64,000 nucleotides of DNA from Methanolobus psychrophilus R15 (GCA_000306725.1 CP003083.1:1302001-1366000); one strand, 5' to 3'. Positions 6,349-51,580 are shown, numbered from the stretch's first letter. Translations and numbers: made by a program. Notes: generated from the letters alone by a model not told the origin.

Positions 6349-6993
6349 TCACCCTGTTCCCTGTCTCGTCACAAACTCATCGAACTTGAAGAACTCTATC
6401 TCAAATCCGTTCTCCACCAACAGGAATACCAACTCCTTTTCCGTGAAGTGATGGGCCACGTAAGCCACTTCCCCGGTCTTCCGGTAATAGGCAATGATGG
6501 AACCCTCCTCTTTTGTCAGCGGCAGGTCATTGATGTAGCGCTCGCGATAGAGCTTTGAATGCCAGGTCTGCCCGAAATCCGCGAGATACAGGTAACCGCC
6601 TGGTTGCAAAACCCTGCACGCCTCCCGGATTATCCTTGCACGGTCCTCTTTTGTGGTAATGGTGGTCAGGAAGGTTTGCATGATCGCAATATCAAAGGCT
6701 GCATCAGAAAAAGGGAGAGTTGTGGCATCTGCCTGGACGAATAGAGGAACCTGAGGAGAGCCACCGGATATGGAGGATGACCTGGCCATCTGCAGAGCTT
6801 CGGAGTTGATGTCAATGCCTGTAACTAAGAAACCCTGTGATGCCAGGGGGATGCTGGCATTTCCGGCGCTACAGCCGATATCAAGGATATGACAGCCGGG
6901 AGAGGTGAACCTGTAGATGACAGGATCAAGTTTGATGGTTGCTGGAATATCCTTTCCTTTAAGACAGGACCATGGGTTTGTCTGGTCGTTCAT
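6349..6993 (-). CDS. SAM-dependent methyltransferase
   Basis: 214-residue class I methyltransferase. Motif I ([12 protein letters not shown]) is near residues 36-47, the motif II acidic loop (VTGIDIN) follows, then an [14 protein letters not shown] region and a post-motif [13 protein letters not shown]. It is of the Methyltransf_11/25 small-molecule type; the substrate is unknown. The short N-terminus before motif I means the frame starts close to the ATG at 6993. It lies between the IS element and the 408-residue hypothetical gene, on the same strand as the latter with a 73-bp gap. Confidence 0.8.
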
Positions 6994-7066
6994 CCTGTTT
7001 TCATTTCCTCCCTCGCTCCCTGATAGATTAGCAGACTTTCAGCTTGTAAAACCTCTTAGTTTAGAA

Positions 7067-8293
7067 TTATATCACAAATCCGGAAGTATCTTCAACCATA
7101 CCTACTCCGCTGCCGGTTTCTTCCAGTGTTATGACTTTACCATCGGTTTCAATTTTCAGATCTACGACATCTACAAGGTTTTCTACATATGTGAAATTGA
7201 AATTGTTTTTGAATTCAAAGAATTCTTTACAATAACTCTTCATAACCACAAAAACCCTGTCATCCTCAGCTGTAATTACCCATCTTTTATCTCCTTTTTC
7301 TGAAGGATACTCATGAACTTTGGCCTTTTTAAATCTGTGAATGTTCTTTGTATCGGCATCATAGAATTCCATAAAATTACGGATATTATATTCCAGTCCC
7401 ACAAATTCGATATTGGGTATATAATAAGTTAGTATTGACCCGTTCCTGAAAACTATTCTCGACCATTTCCACGGAATGAGCGGACCGACAACAATTACTT
7501 TCTGAACATAGCATTTTCCGGAGAACTCCTTCTCAAACAACATTCCCTTAAAATCAAAATACAGGTTGGCCACCCTGTACCCGAATACGCCTTTGAAGTT
7601 TTCTGACAACTCCGAGTTGCATATCTCGTCTGCCGGCTCTGTGATATCCAGACAGCATATCATCTTGTCTCCACTTGAAATATCGAGTGTGTATTTTGGA
7701 AATGACCCATGGAAACTCGCCAGGATATCCTCTGTGGAACAGGTCACTTTATCGCCTTTTACCTTGATGGTTCCCAGATGGTCAGTGATCTTTTTCTGAA
7801 CTTCGTCATATGCCCAGGAAACACAATATCCTTCTGTTCTATCATTTATTATCCGGCTGTTCTCCACATACCTGCCATTGACCTCGATATCTCCCGCAGA
7901 CCTGCCGAACATGAGGAAAAACTGGCATCTTGAACCATCGTTTGCTGTGAATTTCATGAACCAGTACTCTTTTCCGAAAAGAGGTAAGTCCTCGAAAGAG
8001 AAAAGGATCTCATTGATACCTTTATTCAGCTCCTTTTTCAGCAGCAATCTTTCAATTTTATCTTTGCTTTCTTTAATCGTCTCGATCGAGGCCATAAAAG
8101 CTTTCTTTTCAACCTCAGGTAAGTTTTTGATGTAATCGTTCCTCTCTTTTATAAAATTTAGAAATCGGTCCTTTTCGATTACAAGCCTCTCTTCAAAGTT
8201 TTTGTTTTTAGGCTCTTTGTCACTTATTGTGGCAGTCACTTTATCACCTACCGGGCTCGAAGAAAAACTATCATGGTTAATATCATGAACCAA
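7067..8293 (-). CDS. Hypothetical protein with a lipocalin-like (CrtC/AttH-type) C-terminal region
   Basis: 408 residues, no signal peptide or membrane segment. Residues 30-95 are charged and helical (coiled-coil-like). The remainder is beta-rich with many aromatic residues; segments around a DGSRCQFFLMFG stretch (residues ~118-129) and a WKWSRIVFRNGSILTYYIP stretch resemble the tandem-lipocalin hydroxyneurosporene synthase/AttH fold. That similarity is from memory and weak. The region is more AT-rich than the neighbouring housekeeping genes and sits between two insertion elements, suggesting acquired DNA. The gene has its own spacer upstream (8294-8400) abutting the IS5 element. Confidence 0.6.
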   Translation of the reverse strand: MVHDINHDSFSSSPVGDKVTATISDKEPKNKNFEERLVIEKDRFLNFIKERNDYIKNLPEVEKKAFMASIETIKESKDKIERLLLKKELNKGINEILFSFEDLPLFGKEYWFMKFTANDGSRCQFFLMFGRSAGDIEVNGRYVENSRIINDRTEGYCVSWAYDEVQKKITDHLGTIKVKGDKVTCSTEDILASFHGSFPKYTLDISSGDKMICCLDITEPADEICNSELSENFKGVFGYRVANLYFDFKGMLFEKEFSGKCYVQKVIVVGPLIPWKWSRIVFRNGSILTYYIPNIEFVGLEYNIRNFMEFYDADTKNIHRFKKAKVHEYPSEKGDKRWVITAEDDRVFVVMKSYCKEFFEFKNNFNFTYVENLVDVVDLKIETDGKVITLEETGSGVGMVEDTSGFVI

Positions 8294-11626: not shown

Positions 11627-13195
11627 CTACGCGTTGTATGGTTTTGAGAACTTTGCCTCAACTTTCTGGCGATGAATAGTATTATAGGCACAGAAGGGAA
11701 TCACACGGCCATCCGGGGTTGCATAGTGAATACCACACCTCTGCACTCTCTCATAATCGAAGTTATAGTAATCCTGGAAATGCATTGCCCCCAGGAACAG
11801 ACTATTCCTGTGGAATGGTCTTAAGGCTTCAGCAGTACCTTTATTGAAGAATTCCATGATCAATCTGGTGACATCGATAGATAATGGAGCAGCCTTCTGA
11901 TCAATGAAATTTGGTATCTCATGCAGTGCCTTTCTTTTAAGAACTGCTTTTTTAATTTGAGATCTGGCATCGTTGATCTGAGCAGTCATATCATCGAGGT
12001 GTCCAAGCAGCCCATCAACATCAACAAAACGAGTGATGGGAATAAGTTCATTCCCTTTCTTAAAGACATAGGTAGCTGCTCCGCAGTGAGGATGTATACT
12101 GAACTCAGGCATTGACCTATTGAACACGGCTTCCATGAACCTGGATACTGAAACCGCCACAGGTATAGGATACCAGTCATCACGACAGATATTTCCGCCT
12201 GTCTGCTCTTCAACCAGCATCAAAAAGTCAGGTATTGTAAGGCGCTTTGACTCTCTTTCGCTCTGATCTATACGACCTGTAAAAGCAACAGGCTGGAAAT
12301 TAACACCCTTGACAACATCAAGCCTTTCAGATGCGAAATTGAGGATATCTCCGATCTGGTGATCATTTACCCCTTTTTCAAGCGTTGGCACCAGTACTAC
12401 ACTTGTAAGCCCTGCCTCACGGCAGTTCCTTATTGCAGTATTTTTCATTGGAAAGGCATTGAAACCGCGCATCTTGCGGTACGGCTCCTCACCTATACCA
12501 TCAAATGACAGGTACACGGTATGGAGACCGGATTCTCTTAATGTTCTTGCAAAATCCACATCCTGTGCAAGCCTCACCCCGTTAGTAGCAATCTGTAAAT
12601 GCTGAAAATCAAGGTCCTTGGCCATCCCAATGATCTCAGGCAGGTCATCACGCACGGTCGGTTCACCTCCAGAGAACTGGACTGCATAGCAAGGCACTGG
12701 TTTTTCATTTTTTAACATAATAAGCATCTTTTTAATCTGCTCGATATCCGGTTCATATATCAAACCGCTTTTCCTCGCATTGGCAAAACACACAGGACAA
12801 TTAAGGTTACACCGGTTAGTTACATCTATGTTTGCCAGGATGGTGCTTGTTTCGTGATTGTGACATAAACCACAATCAAGAAAATAATCGGTGCCCATTA
12901 CCAATGGATTTGAGACACCTTTACCTAACACATGATAAGCTTCGAACTTCTCATAAAGTTCAGCATCTGACCAGTACATATCCTTGAAAATACCATGTGA
13001 AGGGCACTTTTTCTCTATGAAGACCTTGCCATTCTCTGTGAATACCATGGCCTCAATTTTAGTCAGGCATTCAGGACAGATGGACAATGTGCATTTAATA
13101 AGCCTCATATATTCTTTTTTTACACAGTTCCCTTCGGTAATACTCCTCAATTCAGAGGATTTCAAGCCATCATTTATTTCCATTCCATAAACCAT
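11627..13195 (-). CDS. Tetraether lipid synthase-like radical SAM enzyme (Tes family)
   Basis: 522 residues. A rubredoxin-like Cys set (C40-x2-C43, C64) opens the protein, then C108-x2-C111, then the radical SAM motif C129-x3-C133-x2-C136. A C-terminal RCGIHY…IPFCAYNT segment supplies further Cys for extra clusters. This multi-cluster layout matches the MJ0619/Tes family, which joins two archaeol chains to make macrocyclic archaeol and GDGT membrane lipids. Close relatives of other function exist, so the substrate is inferred. The start at 13195 is chosen for the GAGG about eight bases upstream. It follows the TrmB regulator by 38 bp on the same strand, so the pair is probably one transcript. 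Confidence 0.75.
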   Translation of the reverse strand: MVYGMEINDGLKSSELRSITEGNCVKKEYMRLIKCTLSICPECLTKIEAMVFTENGKVFIEKKCPSHGIFKDMYWSDAELYEKFEAYHVLGKGVSNPLVMGTDYFLDCGLCHNHETSTILANIDVTNRCNLNCPVCFANARKSGLIYEPDIEQIKKMLIMLKNEKPVPCYAVQFSGGEPTVRDDLPEIIGMAKDLDFQHLQIATNGVRLAQDVDFARTLRESGLHTVYLSFDGIGEEPYRKMRGFNAFPMKNTAIRNCREAGLTSVVLVPTLEKGVNDHQIGDILNFASERLDVVKGVNFQPVAFTGRIDQSERESKRLTIPDFLMLVEEQTGGNICRDDWYPIPVAVSVSRFMEAVFNRSMPEFSIHPHCGAATYVFKKGNELIPITRFVDVDGLLGHLDDMTAQINDARSQIKKAVLKRKALHEIPNFIDQKAAPLSIDVTRLIMEFFNKGTAEALRPFHRNSLFLGAMHFQDYYNFDYERVQRCGIHYATPDGRVIPFCAYNTIHRQKVEAKFSKPYNA

Positions 13196-41925: not shown

Positions 41926-42855
41926 TCAGAAATAACCGGAAGGCACAGCCTTCCAGTTATCCGGTGCATTTCCCGTTCCTGAACTTACATCAATGAAGTA
42001 TTCATTATTGTAGTAATACCACAATCTTGTGACCGAGTAATGCCTGTCCTTAAAGTAGTAGAAATCCATATTTGCAGTGTCGGTGTCTACAACGCAGCCT
42101 GCATCATCATCGTAGTAAGGACCAAAGGTAGCATCCAGCGGGAACCATTCCCCCTCCTCGTAAACCTCCACCCAGGCATGGCCTCCGCTAATTCCCGAGA
42201 GGCTGACCTCACCTATAGCTACCCTGACCGTACTCTCATCGTATTCATCTGATGCTATCAGCAGTGAAGCCAGTGCATTGGCCTGATCCTCACAATCACT
42301 TACGATGGTGCCTGGCACTGGATTGGTGCTGTAGGACGAGGTATCGTACAGGAACTGTGACGGATACAGCCATGTTTCCTGCTTTCCTGTGAGAGTCATA
42401 TCAGATACCCATACCCAGGAGACAGCAACCTGATAAATGCGGTATTTATCGTCCAGACCTTCCTCTTCCAGATAATAGGTGACTGCATCATCATACGGAG
42501 TGACATACTCCTGGAAGTATGACACGCCAGCCAGCCGTGGAGTGTTCTGCTTCAGGAAATCTGCAAGTTCCTCCCTGTTGAGCATGTTATCCTGCATAAC
42601 TACCGAAGGCTGTCGGACAATACTGTTCTTTTCATAGAAAGAGGGGGAGTTACCCGGAGCCGACATCCTGCCATTGCGGGACTCATGCATGCTCTGCATA
42701 TTCATACCAGGTCCGGTTTTCTGGTAACCCGGAAGGGATACAGCTGAAAGCCCATCTGCACTAAGCTGACTTGTTGTGGCACGATCTTGAATGATCGAAT
42801 AGACCGAACATAGTAAGATCATTGCCATTAAGAAAGACAAGACTACTTTTCCCAT
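41926..42855 (-). CDS. Secreted/membrane-anchored transglutaminase-like protein
   Basis: 309 residues with an N-terminal hydrophobic segment (VVLSFLMAMILLCSVYSII). The transglutaminase-like triad is visible: Cys in DCEDQANALASLL, His in GGHAWVEVY and Asp in PLDATFG. Such extracytoplasmic domains act as proteases or peptide-crosslinking/remodelling enzymes. Start 42855 has GAGGT about nine bases upstream. It lies 88 bp after the FtsX-like gene on the same strand, probably in its transcript. Confidence 0.82.
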   Translation of the reverse strand: MGKVVLSFLMAMILLCSVYSIIQDRATTSQLSADGLSAVSLPGYQKTGPGMNMQSMHESRNGRMSAPGNSPSFYEKNSIVRQPSVVMQDNMLNREELADFLKQNTPRLAGVSYFQEYVTPYDDAVTYYLEEEGLDDKYRIYQVAVSWVWVSDMTLTGKQETWLYPSQFLYDTSSYSTNPVPGTIVSDCEDQANALASLLIASDEYDESTVRVAIGEVSLSGISGGHAWVEVYEEGEWFPLDATFGPYYDDDAGCVVDTDTANMDFYYFKDRHYSVTRLWYYYNNEYFIDVSSGTGNAPDNWKAVPSGYF

Positions 42856-42942: not shown

Positions 42943-44181
42943 TTATTCATACCTCAATGCGTCTACCGGCCTCATCTTCGAGGCATTGTAAGCAGGCACC
43001 ACACCTGAAATTATACCTATGAAGACAGCGATGGAAATACCCAGGAGCATCAGTTCCGGGGAGAGGGTGGAACCCATGGAGGATCTCATCATCGTCAGTC
43101 CCAACGCCGGTAGCAGGGACGTTAGCCCGAGACTCAGTACGATACCGAGCACTCCACCGACAAATCCCACCAGTGCCGAGTTGACCAGGAATATCATCAT
43201 GATGTCCTTGTTCTTGGCTCCAATAGCCTTCATGGTTCCTATTTCCCGCGTCTTCTCCATTACCGAAGTGAACATCGTGTTTGCAATACCTACCGAGCCG
43301 ACGACCAGGGAAACAGCTGCTATGGCTCCCAGGAAAAGGCTCATCGATGACATCATCTCACTGACAGACTCTGCCATGGATAGTGAGTCGCTTACACTGA
43401 AGTCACGGTCCTTTTCGTTCATGACATGCCTTGATATCATGAGCTTCTTTTCCACGTCTTCAACCACGGTCTCTACATTTGTGACATCGTTGACCTTGAT
43501 GACGATGGAATCATACACATTGTTTTCTGCGTCCTCTATAAGTTCGACTGCAGCATCTATGGGCATTATCACGGCATTGTCATCCTCACCTGATGCAAGT
43601 ATGCCTATCACCCTCACGGATTTTCCGTTAACTGTAATGACCCGGTTCAGGCCGACTGGGCTATCGTACATGTCATTGGCAACCCTGTAGCCTATCACTG
43701 CAACGAACTTGTCTGCTGGCTCCAGCAGCCTGCCCGACTCCAGATCATATGTGACGGTGTACTGCCATACCTGGGGATCGACACCTGTGATGGAAAGGTC
43801 TGCAGACTTAACCATATAGTACACGGACTCACGCCCTGAGATCTTGCCATACATATAATCGATGTTATCCACCAGTTTGAGCGCCCGAAGATCCTTATTT
43901 GTAAGTTCCGCATCATCTGAGGCAGACGAGGAGTCTCCACCACTGCCGCCCGGGGGTCCCATGGCTGAGAAGGCCCTGGTGTAGCCCGGAGTAACGGTAA
44001 TAGTAGTCAGATCCATATCAGCAAGGCGGTTCTCCATATCTGCTGACATGCTGTCACTTATAGACATGATGGTAACGACCGCGCCGACTCCGATGACAAT
44101 GCCTATTATAGTGAGCCAGCTTCTGATCTTGCTGTGCAGCAGGATGTTGGTTGCAAGCTTAAGATATGTCCTTCGTCTCAT
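42943..44181 (-). CDS. MacB/FtsX-like ABC transporter permease
   Basis: 412 residues: one N-terminal membrane helix (SWLTIIGIVIGVGAVVTIMSI), a large outside MacB periplasmic-core domain (~45-270), then three helices in the FtsX domain. MacB-type permeases do not move substrate across the membrane directly but transmit force to outside partners. Its ATG overlaps the end of the CARDB-type gene by four bases; the ATPase is two genes upstream. No TolC-like partner is needed in a single-membrane archaeon. Confidence 0.9.
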   Translation of the reverse strand: MRRRTYLKLATNILLHSKIRSWLTIIGIVIGVGAVVTIMSISDSMSADMENRLADMDLTTITVTPGYTRAFSAMGPPGGSGGDSSSASDDAELTNKDLRALKLVDNIDYMYGKISGRESVYYMVKSADLSITGVDPQVWQYTVTYDLESGRLLEPADKFVAVIGYRVANDMYDSPVGLNRVITVNGKSVRVIGILASGEDDNAVIMPIDAAVELIEDAENNVYDSIVIKVNDVTNVETVVEDVEKKLMISRHVMNEKDRDFSVSDSLSMAESVSEMMSSMSLFLGAIAAVSLVVGSVGIANTMFTSVMEKTREIGTMKAIGAKNKDIMMIFLVNSALVGFVGGVLGIVLSLGLTSLLPALGLTMMRSSMGSTLSPELMLLGISIAVFIGIISGVVPAYNASKMRPVDALRYE

Positions 44182-45551
44182 TGCCCTTCCTTCAGGATCT
44201 TCCTCTTCAGTCCCTTTAAGTGGTTTGACAATTCCTCACGGATATTCTCATTGGACTGGCCTGCTTTCCTCTTCCTGTAGTAGAGAGCTCCGCCTGCAAG
44301 GACAACCAGTGCCAGGCCATACATCAGGTAGCTGCTGTCAGATGTCTGCTGGGACCTTCCCCCGGGACCCATTGCTGCAGAGGCGGCACCTGTTGCGGAC
44401 AGGTCTATAGGGACGCTTTTGTCCACAGACAATCGCTGGCCTGTGGAATCCGTGTACTCTATCAGTACCAGGAGGTTATTCCTTGAACTGGAAGATTGCG
44501 ATTGTGTCGTATTAGAAGAACTTGCCTGTGCCTGTCCCGGCCTTCCGTCAGATGAACCTGTCGGCACCATACTGGAAGAAGTGACAGAGAAAGATGTGAT
44601 GGTGTAATCTCCCTTTTCAAGGTTTCCAACTATAGTGGAAGTACTTCCTGTTGCCTTGAAATTTTCCTGTTCAGGTATGGACACCTTGACAGAATAAGCC
44701 TGGTTATTACCTACATTCGCAAGTGACAGGGAAACTTCGCCTGCACTGCTCTCTGAATAAGTCACATCGAAATCCGTGCCGCCTCCTACAAAGAGACCAG
44801 CTTTTGTCTTGATGGTACTCTCATTGGAATCATAGTCCTGGAAAGTCAGCGTGATGTCAAGCTGGTACAACCCGGGGTCTGCGTTCACGTTGGCCATAAC
44901 CGAATAGGTTACTGCTACAGACTCACCTACACCAAGATAACTTATGTGCTTGGTATTGTCTGAGTAGACTGGGAGGATGACACCATTTGAGTCTTCCCAT
45001 GAGACAGCCATATTCTTGAGAGGAGAAGTACCGGTGTTGGTAATAATGAACTCAAGGGGTTCTACGGTAGCAAGGTCAATATTTGACTTACTAATAGTAA
45101 CAACCTGTGCATACTCCTTACCCTGTACATCGACTGCAACCGTAGTTGTTACAGCTGATTCGCTGTCGCTGTCTTTAACGGATATATCAATATCATAGGT
45201 CTTCTTTGCCGCGTCGGCATCTACTTTGAGTTTGAATTTGACTACTGTGGCATCATTTTCATCCTGACGGGCTTTCAGATAGGATATGGTCTTTGAAAGT
45301 GACTCACTGGATGCCTGAGAAAAGGGATATTCTGGATCCACTGCAATGACCACGTTGGTAAGGTCCTTGTTCCCCACGTTCTGTACTGTCAGTGTAAGTT
45401 CTACGACCTCGCCTGGTCTTGCAGGACTCGGGCTCTGGCTCATAACACTGATGTATACTCCATTGGCAGTATTGGCACTGCTTGATAGTGCTGCTGATGC
45501 CGAAGTAGCGGATAGTATCAAAAATAATACTAAAATAAGGATTTTTCTCAT
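44178..45551 (-). CDS. S-layer-like/CARDB-repeat membrane-anchored protein
   Basis: 457 residues. Signal peptide 1-20 (ILVLFLILSATSASA); three or so Ig-like NEW3/CARDB domains (VELTLTVQNVGNKDLTNVVIAVD…, FIITNTGTSPLKNMAVSW…, SLSLANVGNNQAYSVKV…); a Ser/Gln-rich linker (~330-360); one C-terminal membrane helix (YLMYGLALVVLAGGALYY) and a basic inner tail. It corresponds to the COG1361-type partners found with MacB-like ABC systems in methanogens, probably the outside substrate-binding or scaffold component (inference). Confidence 0.82.
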   Translation of the reverse strand: MRKILILVLFLILSATSASAALSSSANTANGVYISVMSQSPSPARPGEVVELTLTVQNVGNKDLTNVVIAVDPEYPFSQASSESLSKTISYLKARQDENDATVVKFKLKVDADAAKKTYDIDISVKDSDSESAVTTTVAVDVQGKEYAQVVTISKSNIDLATVEPLEFIITNTGTSPLKNMAVSWEDSNGVILPVYSDNTKHISYLGVGESVAVTYSVMANVNADPGLYQLDITLTFQDYDSNESTIKTKAGLFVGGGTDFDVTYSESSAGEVSLSLANVGNNQAYSVKVSIPEQENFKATGSTSTIVGNLEKGDYTITSFSVTSSSMVPTGSSDGRPGQAQASSSNTTQSQSSSSRNNLLVLIEYTDSTGQRLSVDKSVPIDLSATGAASAAMGPGGRSQQTSDSSYLMYGLALVVLAGGALYYRKRKAGQSNENIREELSNHLKGLKRKILKEGQ

Positions 45552-45589: not shown

Positions 45590-46363
45590 TCACATTGCTT
45601 CTCTATGTATCTTTTCTACTTTCTCGACCATGCCATCCCTGATGTGTATTACCTTATCGGCATACTGCACCGGCTTGTGATCGTGAGTAACGATGATGAT
45701 GGTCTTTCCTTCGTTCCTGTGCAGATCGCTCAGGAACTCGAGGATGTAACTGCCAGTCTTACTGTCAAGGTTGCCTGTAGGCTCATCTGCAAGGATTACC
45801 TGGGGATTTACTGCAAGGGACCTTGCTATTGCGACCCTTTGCCTCTGTCCGCCTGACAGCTGCGAGGGCAGGTTTTTCTTCTTATCTGAAAGCCCGACAA
45901 CTTCCAGCAATTCTCCTGCTCTCTTGCGGGCATAAGAGGGATCAGCTTCCTGGAACTCCAGCGGAAGCATAACGTTCTCTATTGTATTTAGCGTGGGAAT
46001 CAGGTTGAACTGCTGGAAAATGAAACCTATCATCTGGCCTCTGATCTGGGCAAGTTCGGATTCCCCGAGCGTCGAGATGTCTTTGTTATTCAGCTCCACA
46101 ACACCCCTGCTGGGAATGTCAAGGCAGCCTATGAGGTTCATCAGCGTGCTTTTCCCACTGCCGCTTGGCCCCAGTATCACAACGAATTCACCTTTGTTTA
46201 TTGTAAGATTGACCTCTTTGAGTGCATCAAAGGTGATCTCACCCATCTGATATGTCTTCCAGACATCACGCAGATTCAACAGAGGTACACTGCAATCATT
46301 CTGGAATGACTGATCATCTGACGGGATAGATCCGGTTTTCAACATCTCCAGCTCCATCGTCAT
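45590..46363 (-). CDS. MacB/LolD-type ABC transporter ATP-binding protein
   Basis: 257 residues. Walker [11 protein letters not shown]-loop FIFQQFNL, signature [15 protein letters not shown], Walker [13 protein letters not shown] and the H-loop VTHDHKP are all intact. The LolD/MacB subgroup is shown by NLDSKTG. It energises the FtsX-like permease encoded two genes later. Its ATG overlaps the stop of the small frame upstream as TAATG, suggesting translational coupling. Confidence 0.93.
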
Positions 46364-46527
46364 TACCAGTGAAAATCACTTCTGCGCTCCCAGGGAGGAG
46401 AAATATTCGACAGGCGATCGAGTTGCTCAGGAGTCAGCTTCCGGATAAGAGCCGGGGCCACGTAAGTATCATTGGAGCTAATTGCCTGAGTACGGGATTC
46501 AATGAATTGTTTAAATATATCCTTCAT
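46363..46527 (-). CDS. Small hypothetical protein translationally coupled to the ABC ATPase
   Basis: 54 residues (MKDIFKQFIESRTQ…LTPEQLDRLSNISPPWERRSDFHW), soluble, helical first half. The stop TAA shares its last base with the ABC ATPase start (TAATG), the main sign that it is translated. The upstream ribosome-binding site is weak (AGGAAG about ten bases before ATG 46527); the frame stays open to 46599. I do not recognise the family. It may be a leader peptide or a small regulator. Confidence 0.45.
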   Translation of the reverse strand: MKDIFKQFIESRTQAISSNDTYVAPALIRKLTPEQLDRLSNISPPWERRSDFHW

Positions 46528-46623
46528 GCAATACTTCCTGACTCGCAGGAGGCACCCGTCTACATAAAGGGGGCCTCCGAACGAGAGATTGGTTGTCATA
46601 TATGGTGGTACTTTGTGTGCTTA

Positions 46624-46664
46624 GTGGCACTCCGGGCCTTGTTACTAGCATCCCGGAGTGCCAC
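46624..46664 (-). ncRNA. Strong stem-loop upstream of the MacB-like operon
   Basis: GTGGCACTCCGGG (46624-46636) and its exact complement CCCGGAGTGCCAC (46652-46664) with a 15-nt loop. It is GC-rich in an AT-rich spacer. If transcription starts from the TATA at 46726-46737 it lies in the mRNA leader; if from 46597-46604 it is upstream DNA. Family unknown; function (attenuator, stabiliser, binding site) not established. Confidence 0.55.
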
Positions 46665-46686
46665 CTCGCGGGGGTGGGCGATACTC

Positions 46687-46707
46687 GTCAGCAATTATCT
46701 TGCTGAC
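46687..46707 (-). ncRNA. Second stem-loop upstream of the MacB-like operon
   Basis: GTCAGCAA-N5-TTGCTGAC, perfect 8-bp arms, 22 bp from the larger stem-loop. Same uncertainty about whether it is RNA structure or a protein-binding dyad. Confidence 0.45.
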
Positions 46708-46778
46708 AATGCCTGAATTAGCCAGTTTAAATAAAGCATACTTACAAATAAAAGTCAAAATGGCACTATTTTCCATGA

Positions 46779-46790
46779 ATAAAGCTTTAT
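46779..46790. promoter_or_regulatory. Palindrome ATAAAGCTTTAT, copy 1
   Basis: Perfect 12-bp palindrome upstream of the MacB-like operon, identical to 49332-49343 upstream of the secreted repeat protein. An imperfect repeat follows at once (AAGGAGCTTTTT). Confidence 0.5.
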
Positions 46791-46955
46791 AAGGAGCTTT
46801 TTGGAGAGTCAACCCTTTATATGGAGCGCATATGCTTATTGCAGGTAGATAAAGAAAGATATCCGTTAAAAAGGAGACAACAGTTCTTTACACTGAATGG
46901 AAAAACATTACCAGTTAATTAAAGCCTGATAGAAAGCAGGGCGAAAATGTGAAGA

Positions 46956-47912
46956 TCAGCTCTTGTCTTCTACAAGGAACAGGATGTTACCCCTTCCCTT
47001 TTTAAATTTTTGGATCTTTCCTCTTTTTTCGAGGTCAAGAAGCATGAGACTTACTTTACCTTCAGAGTATCTCAAACGTTTGCGCATATCTTTTTGTGTG
47101 ATCCTTCCACCCTGGGACCTGAGGATATCCAGTATTTCCTGCAGGTCTGCAGGAATAGGTCCGGAAGACAGTTCAGTGGCCTTTCTATCTGAAATATTTA
47201 ACTCAGGGATGAGGACATGCTCTGGAGGTATATCGCTTACCCCATCTTCCTCCTCAGAAGATACGATTTGTAGCTGTACCTCAGGAACCTCATGATCAGC
47301 TTTGATAAGTGCAACAGTATTATGTTCGGCTTTAACAGGCTCAAAAGCAGCAGGTTCCAGTAAAACCAGGTCAGCAGTAAGAGAGCTTGTTCTCCTGGAA
47401 TGAGAAACATCTGGTGACCGCTCGCTCTTATAACGCACCTGGTAGAACAGAATCAACAGGACTAAGATAAGCGTTAGTGATGCTCCTATTAGAATTCCGC
47501 TGCTATCTCCTGAAGATGAAACTGCTGTATCCTGGCCTGTATTCCCCGGGCTAACCACAATAGCATCGAGCTCCGTGTTCGTATAAGAAGGAAGCAGGAG
47601 CAGGTCCACGACATAGCTGCCTTCATTGGACACAGTGATTGCCTCTTCCCCATAATGGGTCAATGCATCGTTCTGGTAATATTTTGCTTTTATCAGGTAG
47701 GTGCCGCTTGGAAGGTCAAAAGAGTAAACACCGGATTTTGCCACCATCGACTGTACAGGAGTAGAGTTCACTTCGACCAGTGTATTGTCAAGAGGTTCGA
47801 ATGTACTCCATTCATAAGCAACACCGTGTACTGTTGCAACTCCGGAAGCCATGCAAAGCCCCGGCATTAATAACAATACAGCAACGCAGCTTATGTACAA
47901 TATGAATTTCAT
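46956..47912 (-). CDS. Membrane-anchored winged-helix regulator with outside sensor domain
   Basis: 318 residues. Signal peptide/anchor 1-22; an extracytoplasmic carboxypeptidase-regulatory-like beta domain (~25-110: VHGVAYEWSTFEPLDNTLVEV…SFDLPSGTYLIKAKYY); one membrane helix (~140-160, ILIGASLTLILVLLILFYQV); a ~85-residue acidic linker; and a C-terminal winged helix (~250-318: LQEILDILRSQGGRITQKDMRKRLRYSEGKVSLMLLDLEKRGKIQKF). This is a one-component system in which an outside signal could alter DNA binding at the membrane. It is co-transcribed with the secreted protein gene upstream (27-bp gap). Confidence 0.8.
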   Translation of the reverse strand: MKFILYISCVAVLLLMPGLCMASGVATVHGVAYEWSTFEPLDNTLVEVNSTPVQSMVAKSGVYSFDLPSGTYLIKAKYYQNDALTHYGEEAITVSNEGSYVVDLLLLPSYTNTELDAIVVSPGNTGQDTAVSSSGDSSGILIGASLTLILVLLILFYQVRYKSERSPDVSHSRRTSSLTADLVLLEPAAFEPVKAEHNTVALIKADHEVPEVQLQIVSSEEEDGVSDIPPEHVLIPELNISDRKATELSSGPIPADLQEILDILRSQGGRITQKDMRKRLRYSEGKVSLMLLDLEKRGKIQKFKKGRGNILFLVEDKS

Positions 47913-47939
47913 TCACATCAACAATTGCTTTTTGCTATA

Positions 47940-48872
47940 TCAAGTATTCTCAAAAAGGGAAGGTTTCCATAGCTGCCTTTTTGCAGGGACGTTGCCATTC
48001 TCAAGATAATAGATGCCATCCCCGAAAAGCTCGGCTCTGCCTTTCCCTGTGGCGACAAGGGAAATATCGTCCCCTATGATCTCTACCATGAATCCTGAGC
48101 CTGATATCCGTATATTACCAGTCACATTATCATATGATATGGCCTTCTGCTTCAGCTCAGTAGTTGAGACTTCAGGTATCACATCATTTTCCAGCCTGAC
48201 AGACACATCGTTCTCAAAATCCACGTAAGAGATTTTTCCGCCGGAGAGAGACAGGTTGATATCCAGGTCACCTAAAAGAACAACAGTACCATTACCCTGT
48301 GCAACCAGGTCGGCATTTTCCGGTATCCCTGCGTGGGGAGCAAGATAGGGGCTCAGCTGATCGAATATGCTTTTAAGTCGGTGGCTTGCCTCAATGATGC
48401 TTTCCCTTGAGCTTTCCAGGCATTCTTCCTCACTCGTACATATCCGGGTGCTGGCTTCAGAGTCATTCACAGGGACTGTACCTGATGATGCATTTGATGA
48501 CATTTCCATGTACATCCTGGCATCTCCTACCAGCAGAGTGTATTCATCAAGCAGAATTTCCATGTTCCCAACATCTTCACCTTCCTGCTTTAATCTGTCA
48601 ATGCTGTCTGCAAGGCGCCGGGACATTCTCTCGGACTTAAGAATGATATCTTCAAGCATTGCCCGATCATCGGTAATCAGTTGTGTATCCTGCTCAAAGA
48701 ACATGCCCTGAAACTGGTCATCAAAGTGTTTATCACCTGGTGGATGCCTTGGGAAGGACATGGGGCCTTCTCTTTTGTCTCCCGGTGAGCTGATGTTGTC
48801 CGGGCCGGTAAAGGCCGATATGATGACCATGGACATAAGGATCATCAGGAATACAATCGGTGCCCTTTTCAT
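47940..48872 (-). CDS. Secreted hypothetical protein, co-operonic with membrane wHTH regulator
   Basis: 310 residues; no family recognised. Signal peptide 1-20 (FLMILMSMVIISAFT). Residues 65-115 and 140-175 are charged helices (KSERMSRRLADSIDRLKQEGEDVGNMEILLDEY…); residues 190-300 are regular beta strands (GTVVLLGDLDINLSLSGGKISYVDFENDVSVRLE…VTGNIRISGSGFMVEI). It may be the outside partner whose state the membrane regulator reads, by analogy with sensor/anti-sensor pairs (inference). Confidence 0.65.
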   Translation of the reverse strand: MKRAPIVFLMILMSMVIISAFTGPDNISSPGDKREGPMSFPRHPPGDKHFDDQFQGMFFEQDTQLITDDRAMLEDIILKSERMSRRLADSIDRLKQEGEDVGNMEILLDEYTLLVGDARMYMEMSSNASSGTVPVNDSEASTRICTSEEECLESSRESIIEASHRLKSIFDQLSPYLAPHAGIPENADLVAQGNGTVVLLGDLDINLSLSGGKISYVDFENDVSVRLENDVIPEVSTTELKQKAISYDNVTGNIRISGSGFMVEIIGDDISLVATGKGRAELFGDGIYYLENGNVPAKRQLWKPSLFENT

Positions 48873-48942
48873 TTAAAATCACATCTTACCATGTTAATCA
48901 TTTTTACTTCCTGTAGCCTATTGCCAGGTCGAAAGTTCATGT

Positions 48943-48954
48943 GCTTTATGAAAG
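48943..48954. promoter_or_regulatory. GCTTTATGAAAG motif, copy 3
   Basis: Identical to 49337-49348, upstream of the secreted-protein/wHTH operon. It places the shared motif in front of the gene for the local membrane regulator. Confidence 0.4.
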
Positions 48955-49304
48955 TCTCTGTTGAATATAAACATACTTAATAGTATAGCAAAAATGTGAT
49001 TGCAATTGCACGATACAGAGCTCAACAGAAGGGTTTTGGACGCATCAATACTTTAAGGCATCCCCTAGATGAGAAAAAGCGCCTATACGGATTTCAATTT
49101 GCTAAGCCAGCTCATTTAACTCATTTTTGCCTGCTATTCACCGACAATGCAGATATTTCCTGTGGCTGCAGATTTGGTATCAAAGATTATCTTGTAGCTT
49201 ACACAAATTATCTTCATGCCTATCCTCCTTCCTGACTACACCTGGTCCTTTTTCTGTAACCATTGGCAAGATAATAGAAGATAATGGGCGCTTAAATAGC
49301 ATTT

Positions 49305-49348
49305 AAAGCTTGTTTCAAGCTTTGAAAAGCAATAAAGCTTTATGAAAG
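49305..49348. promoter_or_regulatory. AAGCTT dyad cluster upstream of secreted repeat protein
   Basis: AAAGCTTG-N3-CAAGCTTT (perfect 8-bp arms, 49305-49323) followed by ATAAAGCTTTAT (49332-49343) and GAAAGCTTC (49344-49352). Four AAGCTT hexamers occur within 50 bp, far more than chance. Probable binding sites for one regulator. Confidence 0.55.
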
Positions 49349-49497
49349 CTTCTTTTTGAGATATAGATGCTCAAATAGCACTCTTTTGTTAAGTATGCTT
49401 ATATTTTCAGCTGGTAATTTTGAGAATGCCGTGCCAGCAGTGAAAGAGAACGGGACTGGATCTGGCACATATAACTTAAAAGGAGGAAAAAAGTGAA

Positions 49498-50319
49498 ATG
49501 AAACTACACGGAAAGAAAGCATTGGCCTATCTTTCTCTGATGCTTGTGGTATTAAGTGTAATACCCTCAGGTGCGATCAGCAATGAGACCGGCATTCAGA
49601 ATGCAACGGACATGCCAGACTTTGCAGAGGGCAAATTCAAGGGAAGGGGACCAATGGAAAGGTCAGCTATGGAAATCCCGGAGTTTGAGACTGAAGAAGA
49701 AGAGATGGCATTCTTAAAGGAGAAAACGGTCGAATCTCTCGAGAAAAGGATAGATATGGCAGAAAAGATGCTCGAGAACATCGATGGGACAGACAGTAAG
49801 AATGTGACTGCAGAATCTCTTGAAGAGGAGATCAGCGAACTTAAGATATTACTCGAAAAGATTAACTCTGCCACAACTCTGGAAGAACTTAAAGAGCTCA
49901 TGTCCGAATCCATGAAGATGGGAAAAGAAGGCATGAAGATGGGACAGGAACGTGAAATGAGGGGCAATGGGCCTGGAAAGGAAATTCCTGAATTTGAAAC
50001 CGAAGAAGAAGAGATAGAGTTCGTAAAAGCAAGGACCGAAGAGTCAGCGAAAAGGATGATTGAAACATTGGAAAATATTGATGTTGAAAAGACCGACTCT
50101 GAGAACATCACAAGCGAGGATGTTGAAGCAATACTTGTCCAGCTTGAGGACATCAAATCAAGACTCAATAGCGAAGACCTGACACTGGAAGATCTTCAGG
50201 AGATCAAGGAGATCATGTCAGGAATAATGGACACCATCAGGGAAGCATGCCCTGCCCCTGCAAATGAAAGAGGAGCATTCCCGGGACACCGCGGGAACAG
50301 GGAGGGAATGACAGCGTAA
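49498..50319 (+). CDS. Secreted protein with a tandem acidic helical repeat
   Basis: 273 residues. Signal peptide ~1-26 (ALAYLSLMLVVLSVIPSGA). Two related units, about residues 60-125 and 161-225, each begin EIPEFETEEEE and end in EEI.ELK.LLEKINS or LEDIKSRLNS, so the mature part is a duplicated, very acidic helical domain; the link between them is Met/Gly/Lys-rich. AGGAGG lies 11 bases before the ATG. Family unknown. Such acidic coiled proteins may bind cations or cover a partner at the cell surface (inference). Confidence 0.7.
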   Translation: MKLHGKKALAYLSLMLVVLSVIPSGAISNETGIQNATDMPDFAEGKFKGRGPMERSAMEIPEFETEEEEMAFLKEKTVESLEKRIDMAEKMLENIDGTDSKNVTAESLEEEISELKILLEKINSATTLEELKELMSESMKMGKEGMKMGQEREMRGNGPGKEIPEFETEEEEIEFVKARTEESAKRMIETLENIDVEKTDSENITSEDVEAILVQLEDIKSRLNSEDLTLEDLQEIKEIMSGIMDTIREACPAPANERGAFPGHRGNREGMTA

Positions 50320-50411
50320 TTTGAGACCAACAATTAATGTGTACTACCAGCTGAAGAGATGGGGCCTCTGGCCCTGTCTCACTACACATCGGCTCATTCT
50401 GAGGATGAACA

Positions 50412-50720
50412 ATGAGAGAGATAATAAAAAAGACCAATCTACCAATCACAATATTGCTGATGCTGTTGACTTTAGCGGCGCAGGGAGTATATACCACAGA
50501 GAACTTTACAGTACCGGGTGCCCAACATTTGGATTTCGACGATATCAGGAACAAGAGCCGTGAAATGATGGCGATAAACATCGAATCTATCGGCACCATG
50601 CAATCCAGCGAGGACTATGAGGAACTGGAAGGCGGGCGCCTGGGAAATGAAGCCCCGGATAAAGAGAATAATGGATTGTTATCCGGTCTGATCAACAAGA
50701 TAAAGGCAATTTTCAGTTAA
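50412..50720 (+). CDS. Small secreted hypothetical protein
   Basis: 102 residues: basic N-terminus, hydrophobic signal helix (ITILLMLLTLAAQGVY), then a polar acidic chain and an amphipathic C-terminal helix (LLSGLINKIKAIFS). Family not recognised. It lies 92 bp after the repeat protein gene on the same strand and may share its transcript and regulation. Confidence 0.6.
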   Translation: MREIIKKTNLPITILLMLLTLAAQGVYTTENFTVPGAQHLDFDDIRNKSREMMAINIESIGTMQSSEDYEELEGGRLGNEAPDKENNGLLSGLINKIKAIFS

Positions 50721-50812
50721 ACTTTGGGATGATCGGATAAACTGGATACAGGCAGCAGATTGTATTCTGCCTGCAACTTTTGTCCCATAACTCACAAACC
50801 GGCAAGCCTTAA

Positions 50813-51580
50813 TCATTCCTTATATACCCCATCTCCGGTGACAAGCCTGCCGTTTACAGTGACCCAGCCGTCCTGGGGCCCTGACAACAGAACATTCATC
50901 CATTCACTGTAGCTGTTCCATTGCCAGCCCAGAATCCACCACTCATTATATCCGGTCATGCTGACAGATATCTCTACCTGGGCATCAGGAGAAGCTTCGT
51001 ACTGCACATAGATACGACTTTCATAGTTATGGATATTCTGCGAGCTGTCGAGGTCATATTTTGGAAGGAGGACCATCTCCCGCCCAAAAGGGTTCTTTGT
51101 GTCTATGATGTGGTCGGCGGGCACCATTGTTGCAAAGGAGATATGATCCTGAACAGGCGTTTCCTCAGAATATCCATCAGATATCACAGGCTCTATTGCC
51201 CGGAGCGGGTCGCTTTCATCGGATACAGGCATGGGGAGAGGACGGAATTTTGGGACTATCTTCTCAGTCTTCATGGAAAGCATAAGCCCGTGTTCAGTAT
51301 CCACAAGAGCGTATTCCCATGAAGGATCATCGTTATTGAAGTTATTCTTTACAATATCCTGTCCAACTGAAGACGCGTTATCCATAATAGGAATCGGGAT
51401 GTAAAGAGTTACGTTGCTCAGATTCGAATTCGTAGTGAGCGTGACATCATAGTCATAACTGCTGTGGAAGCTATCTTCATACATCGCTTGTTTCTGGCCT
51501 GCCCACCAGAAAGATAACACTCCCGCAGACACGACAAATACCAGAACAAAGCCAGCTATTATTTTATAAGAAGGTTTCAT
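50813..51580 (-). CDS. Membrane-anchored hypothetical protein
   Basis: 255 residues, one N-terminal membrane helix (~7-27, IIAGFVLVFVVSAGVLSFWWAG) and a beta-rich, Trp/Tyr-rich outside domain (YDYDVTLTTNSNLSNVTLYIPIPI…IYVQYEASPDAQVEISVSMTGYNEWWILGWQW). I do not recognise the family. It ends the envelope region and is transcribed divergently from glnA across 243 bp. Confidence 0.65.
   Translation of the reverse strand: MKPSYKIIAGFVLVFVVSAGVLSFWWAGQKQAMYEDSFHSSYDYDVTLTTNSNLSNVTLYIPIPIMDNASSVGQDIVKNNFNNDDPSWEYALVDTEHGLMLSMKTEKIVPKFRPLPMPVSDESDPLRAIEPVISDGYSEETPVQDHISFATMVPADHIIDTKNPFGREMVLLPKYDLDSSQNIHNYESRIYVQYEASPDAQVEISVSMTGYNEWWILGWQWNSYSEWMNVLLSGPQDGWVTVNGRLVTGDGVYKE

Follow-up and report, generated by a model that had tools for sequence, protein, structure and literature searches.

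Envelope stress regulons of the Cpx/Spy type in bacteria bring together a sensor in the membrane, a helical accessory protein that is exported, and an exporter. Another bacterial reference is ToxR–ToxS, which would be the nearest analogue of a membrane-bound regulator paired with an exported protein. Transmembrane transcription regulators (TTRs; the ToxR/CadC class) have been reported widely in archaea by a survey (Demey et al. 2023, PMC10269533), and ArnR and ArnR1 of Sulfolobus are described, in the passages that cite them (PMC13286277), as membrane-bound helix-turn-helix (HTH) regulators controlling surface structures. Among RNAs, sRNA162 of the Methanosarcinales is encoded next to an ArsR-type regulator and works as an antisense RNA (PMC3510493), and a start-site map of Methanolobus psychrophilus contains conserved cold-induced small RNAs (sRNAs) with an upstream 'cold box', with nine copies reported (PMC5378194). 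Here we describe a gene module in a stretch of 64 000 nt from M. psychrophilus R15 (GCA_000306725.1, CP003083.1:1302001–1366000; 'the window'), which encodes a predicted membrane-anchored winged-helix regulator (wHTH), two exported proteins of 310 and 273 amino acids (aa) (S310 and A273) and an ATP-binding cassette (ABC) system; a structured RNA and a small gene separate the regulator from the ABC genes (Table 1). Judging from sequence comparisons, we consider it fairly probable that this is a cell-envelope response module of the Methanosarcinaceae, run by wHTH as a transmembrane one-component regulator.

We searched 100 related genomes for the wHTH and S310 families, which are found in 88 and 77 genomes, respectively; the two genes are adjacent in 57 of the 71 genomes that have both (49 out of 50 in the Methanosarcinaceae subset). 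At the locus in the window (locus 1), A273 is divergent from S310–wHTH, and the regulator gene is followed by genes for the ATPase, a CARDB-type protein, the permease and, usually, a transglutaminase-like protein. This order recurs in several genera, and tandem duplicates of the S310(–wHTH) unit are found at locus 1 in many Methanolobus. Another pair is located at a distant site (locus 2), where wHTH is divergent from a longer S310-like protein and ABC genes are lacking; the neighbours of this pair (genes for an ACT protein, homoserine dehydrogenase and DNA ligase) were judged to reflect stable housekeeping synteny and were rejected as a functional link. S310 is probably the outside partner of wHTH, since the two genes stay next to each other at locus 1 and at locus 2. 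In the longer protein at locus 2, the S310 domain appears to be fused to an A273-like helical domain that precedes it, which ties A273 to S310 as well (one hhalign comparison, probability 92, E = 7e-7).

The regulator has an outside domain of ∼85 residues (about 23–108), a membrane helix besides the signal peptide (about 138–156, hydropathy maximum 2.65) that is kept across relatives, a long, variable cytoplasmic linker and a putative C-terminal winged helix (256–313) that matches the Pfam family DUF7343 (E = 4e-16) and, more weakly, HTH_24 and MarR; the latter two were matched in 36 out of 36 members at a relaxed threshold. At the same threshold CarboxypepD_reg was matched in 22 of 36 relatives (best E-value 1.4e-5), though the copy in the window has no Pfam match in its outside domain. 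Many residues of this domain are invariant (including H29, G30, Y33, W35, N49, P52 and Q54), and its comparison with profiles of solved structures gave one weak match (3hn5, E = 0.004). With a DNA-binding domain, a membrane helix besides the signal peptide and an extracytoplasmic sensor-type domain, all predicted, wHTH has the architecture of TTRs; the operator and regulon through which it would control transcription from the membrane are predicted ones. S310, which ends 27 nt before the wHTH gene on the same strand, combines a helical part with a subsequent beta part that is rich in Gly and contains invariant glycines; a lipobox cysteine is present in its relatives from other genera and has been lost in Methanolobus. 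No family match was found for S310 in Pfam or NCBIfam and nothing useful among solved-structure profiles; a fold search of the PDB with a model of S310 gave cupin/jelly-roll matches (E about 0.01, TM-score 0.15) that we rejected as unusable.

A first-pass annotation of the window had already placed these genes correctly, and most of its picture agrees with ours: a secreted partner in one operon with the regulator, an outside domain resembling carboxypeptidase-regulatory domains, a single membrane helix with an inner winged helix, a duplicated acidic secreted protein, and a flanking MacB-like ABC system with a CARDB-type partner. The neighbourhood proved to be conserved in relatives. Its label 'accessory' is contradicted by the near-universal presence of the wHTH–S310 pair in the Methanosarcinaceae and its occurrence in the order, and the module is larger than it saw, with the RNA, the small gene, the candidate operator and the promoter elements added.

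The upstream regions of both S310 and A273 share a core-promoter element, AAGTATG(C/T)TTATATT. A strict form with one more base (TAAGTATGYTTATATT) occurs twice in the closed 3.07 Mb genome, to which all whole-genome motif counts refer, at S310 and A273 only; the reversed pattern has no match there, and additional sites that a relaxed search yields in the same genome are not in excess. In 49 genomes with 132 Mb in total, AAGTATGYTTATAT has 95 matches, of which 64 lie within 3 kb of S310, A273 or wHTH genes, where 0.46 is expected. The sharing of the element among orthologous promoters is partly inheritance; the promoters that carry it also include non-orthologous ones, namely those of locus-1 S310, the locus-2 S310-like gene, A273, the ABC operon and the extra regulator loci of another genus.

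Upstream of the element lies a 12-bp palindrome, ATAAAGCTTTAT, a candidate operator. Its consensus was derived from the module promoters themselves, so its presence there is not independent evidence; the independent evidence is its rarity: the genome has three exact copies, none of them outside the two wHTH loci. Palindromes are found 35–37, 46–48, 55–57 or 65–67 nt upstream of the element, and because of this spacing they sit on one face of the helix relative to it. In 24 other genomes, a comparison of positions put 16 of 29 perfect palindromes within ∼130 nt of an AAGTAT element. A composite pattern of palindrome plus element has 27 matches in the 100 genomes and none in controls, and one of these matches precedes an S310-like gene in a different family. 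In two relatives the element with its palindrome heads genes whose products match the S-layer family PF07752 (E about 1e-194 to 1e-200). Elsewhere among the relatives the combination also heads genes of a lipoprotein family, a gene for a DUF4405 membrane protein and a VTC/DUF4956/Cthe_2159 operon; by these matches, several putative regulon members in relatives are surface proteins.

The structured RNA is encoded between the wHTH and ATPase genes; a variant of the element lies on its 5′ side, and the small gene with the ABC operon on its 3′ side. The copy in the window is far more stably folded than its shuffles (z = −6.8). An alignment of 26 Methanolobus sequences supports three hairpins with 35 pairs (94.9% paired), 15 of them with double changes; this covariation support was matched by none of 500 shuffles and was lost when the pairing partners were slid. 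A covariance model found 34 copies in 20 of the 100 genomes, and 32 of these copies follow S310/wHTH genes of the module. The other two belong to another genus (related region L141, 4847–5000 and 7485–7638, − strand) and lie away from any regulator gene; a palindrome and promoter element are again found upstream, and a gene for an Lcl_C-domain protein lies downstream after a long gap. By these comparisons the RNA travels with its promoter. Rfam 15 gave no match at E ≤ 1 to the RNA in the window, nor at the RNA in regions L126 and L141.

One alternative concerns how this RNA may act. It might be mainly a trans-acting sRNA that is transcribed before the ABC operon or liberated from its transcript; its loops would then pair with mRNAs, and its position as a leader would be incidental. 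Trans-acting sRNAs are known in Methanosarcina mazei (PMC3510493), the RNA loops are conserved and almost free of G, and the two copies of the other genus lie away from the module, with a long gap before an unrelated gene. In Methanolobus, however, the small gene always comes 3′ of the RNA, whose end lies immediately before the ribosome-binding site of that gene. We prefer a cis leader role because the pairing of the loops with the start regions of S310 and wHTH was no better than in controls, and regard trans action as unlikely, if worth keeping in view.

In relatives the product of the small gene is conserved as ..KLTPEQLDRL..ISP... Its codon-position differences (44/46/102 in independent pairs) are those of coding genes, which is why we take it to be coding, and the TAATG that joins its stop to the ATPase start suggests translational coupling of the two genes. 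An antisense open reading frame that overlaps the RNA and the small gene (46369–46716, + strand) was judged an artefact. The permease combines MacB_PCD and FtsX domains and goes with an ATPase of the LolD/MacB type, as in the type VII ABC superfamily; MacB itself has ATPase and permease in one chain, whereas here they are encoded by separate genes.

Table 1. Positions of the module's features in the window, counted from its first nucleotide
Feature	Position	Strand	Remarks
Transglutaminase-like exported protein	41926–42855	−	weak PF01841 match; 3′ of the permease in most relatives
MacB-like permease	42943–44181	−	MacB_PCD (PF12704, 1e-31) and FtsX (PF02687, 3e-21)
CARDB/NPCBM_assoc-type exported protein	44178–45551	−	likely partner of the ABC system
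ABC ATPase, LolD/MacB type	45590–46363	−	LolD TIGR02211, 6e-68, below its curated cut-off
Small conserved gene	46363–46527	−	54 aa (..RKLTPEQLDRLSNISPPW..); stop overlaps ATPase start (TAATG)
Structured RNA	46542–46710	−	169 nt, three hairpins; leader of small gene and ABC operon
Core-promoter element variant AAGTATGCTTTATTTAAA	46726–46743	−	heads RNA–ABC operon
Palindrome ATAAAGCTTTAT, candidate operator	46779–46790		35 nt upstream of RNA–ABC element
wHTH regulator	46956–47912	−	318 aa; predicted signal peptide, outside domain, membrane helix, linker, winged helix
S310	47940–48872	−	310-aa exported partner (probable), same operon as wHTH
Core-promoter element AAGTATGTTTATATT	48964–48978	−	upstream of S310–wHTH
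Palindrome ATAAAGCTTTAT, candidate operator	49332–49343		47 nt upstream of A273 element
Core-promoter element AAGTATGCTTATATT	49391–49405	+	upstream of A273
A273	49498–50319	+	273-aa acidic exported helical protein, internal duplication, divergent from S310–wHTH

Gene content, conservation, the rare shared cis elements, the covariation of the RNA and the coding pattern of the small gene are supported directly. The mechanism that we propose would join them as follows. The outside beta domain of wHTH, together with S310, would sense conditions in the space that separates the membrane from the S-layer. On the inside, the winged helix would bind as a dimer to ATAAAGCTTTAT at a fixed phase upstream of the AAGTATG–TATA core promoter; an activator dimer fits because the palindrome keeps this phase upstream of TATA, and the position and phase of the palindrome suggest that binding activates transcription. 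Three units would be switched, S310–wHTH, A273 and the RNA–small gene–ABC operon, the first of them as feedback, and the leader RNA would most likely adjust how well the small gene and the ABC operon are translated or how stable their transcript is. Here we infer which protein binds, whether it activates or represses, what the signal is and how the RNA acts. The full picture is put forward tentatively, at somewhat less than even confidence: an envelope-stress regulon in which wHTH itself would recognize ATAAAGCTTTAT and have an exported co-sensor, the ABC operon would contain a new family of RNA that adds RNA-level to transcriptional control, and the S-layer would be reached in some species.

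In the main rival reading, a different regulator would recognize palindrome and element, and wHTH would be one of its targets, acting elsewhere or only tuning the response. Several observations weigh against wHTH as the reader or against an envelope regulon. We found no good palindrome upstream of the S310–wHTH promoter in M. psychrophilus itself, and 13 of the 29 perfect palindromes in the 24 other genomes have no known link to the element. In some relatives the element heads genes far from any wHTH: besides the lipoprotein family, these are a gene for a DUF4405 membrane protein and an operon of VTC, DUF4956 and Cthe_2159 genes, and an envelope role of the latter two is not obvious. An AlphaFold2 model of wHTH, built from three sequences only, reached a confidence (pLDDT) of 38, with three helices at 255–296 only, and is too poor to be used. 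A different reader would explain the distant genes and the unlinked palindromes, but not why all three palindromes of the genome lie at wHTH loci, nor why the element accompanies wHTH/S310 at paralogous loci, in several genera and in a second family; we hold it to be unlikely and retain wHTH as the candidate reader.

It is also conceivable, but quite improbable, that the module is a BceAB/MacB-like detoxification system, whose ABC transporter would clear antimicrobial peptides or mislocalized lipoproteins, with a regulator that responds to the drug load and not to the general state of the envelope. The ABC parts are indeed of the MacB/LolCDE type and are kept beside the regulator; the locus-2 pair, however, goes without them, and in relatives the element heads genes for S-layer proteins and lipoproteins, which speaks for a link to the envelope itself. 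That the genes simply share conserved synteny and a strong core promoter, with no dedicated regulation, is highly improbable: the element is partly a BRE/TATA (transcription factor B recognition element and TATA box) sequence and orthologous promoters resemble each other by descent, but two copies in the genome are too few for a general promoter, and unrelated genes share it with phased palindromes.

The first-pass annotation had proposed a sensor-regulator that controls surface proteins and the ABC machine. The idea that a putative sensor exerts such control gains strong independent support from the conserved order, the rare element and the S-layer and lipoprotein genes; two of the exported proteins that it counted as members are not part of the core. 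One (50412–50720, 102 aa) seems to be a truncated version of a protein that has ∼200 aa in other Methanolobus. The other (50813–51580, 255 aa) is co-located only in the closest relatives and has homologues at unrelated places in most genomes; its product is exported, of no assigned family, and widespread across the order at varying places. Weak Pfam matches in coiled-coil parts (SwaI-like and others) were judged to be chance.

Other observations concern single relatives or groups of relatives (regions numbered with L). The VTC, DUF4956 and Cthe_2159-like operon under the element is found in one Methanolobus genome (L138, 3671–6409). In L133, L135, L136 and L139 a further leader, upstream of the DUF4405 gene, is driven by the element; its long terminal stem (AAGATCGCATGT..ACATGCGATCTT) encloses a G-poor loop rich in ACCAACCACC, and it may represent another family of RNAs in this regulon. 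One genome has two extra wHTH paralogues (L140, 5559–6503 and 10781–11764), and near each of them is a small exported Lys-rich protein headed by the promoter element (6809–7156 and 12578–12904). A small lipoprotein gene lies 3′ of the S310-like gene in most locus-2 regions, and locus 2 of another genus encodes tandem exported coiled-coil proteins with a small lipoprotein of ∼87 aa after each (L143, 5659–9237). A group II intron (RF02012) lies close to the module in one relative (L126, 17546–17694).

How archaea sense and answer damage in an envelope made only of membrane and S-layer is largely an open question. The module offers a candidate sensor and a candidate 12-bp operator that is nearly unique, along with a new RNA family and a regulon that is small and defined. 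Methanolobus has published start-site data and its relatives (Methanosarcina) have genetics, and each step can be assayed by standard methods. In our literature search we found no description of the regulator family, its partner, the element or the RNA, and no paper that mentions DUF7343.

Compared with known systems, wHTH is like the ToxR/CadC class in being a one-component, single-pass membrane protein with its DNA-binding domain inside and a sensor domain outside, and differs in its C-terminal DUF7343, its CarboxypepD_reg-like sensor and its conserved exported partner gene. As far as the passages citing ArnR and ArnR1 go, these are likewise archaeal, membrane-anchored HTH regulators, but with the HTH at the N-terminus where that of wHTH is C-terminal, and with a different outside part and different targets; an RNA is described for the module only. 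The resemblance to Cpx/Spy would be one of working only (membrane sensor, exported helical accessory, exporter): the module has no two-component system, its promoters are archaeal and no Spy/CpxP family match was found, including for A273 in Pfam. With MacB/LolCDE (type VII ABC) it shares the MacB_PCD and FtsX permease and the LolD/MacB-type ATPase, but ATPase and permease are separate, CARDB takes the place of MacA, and the operon is led by the RNA and the small gene. The sRNAs of the Methanosarcinales, from the same order, are also structured, have their own promoters and lie next to regulator genes; from the cold-box sRNAs, with nine copies reported (PMC5378194), the module RNA, with one per genome or unit, would be set apart by copy number. 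Membrane-bound regulators as a class, including those of archaea (PMC10269533), and MacB/Lol ABC systems are thus already known, and the most surprising part of the module is the new RNA family.

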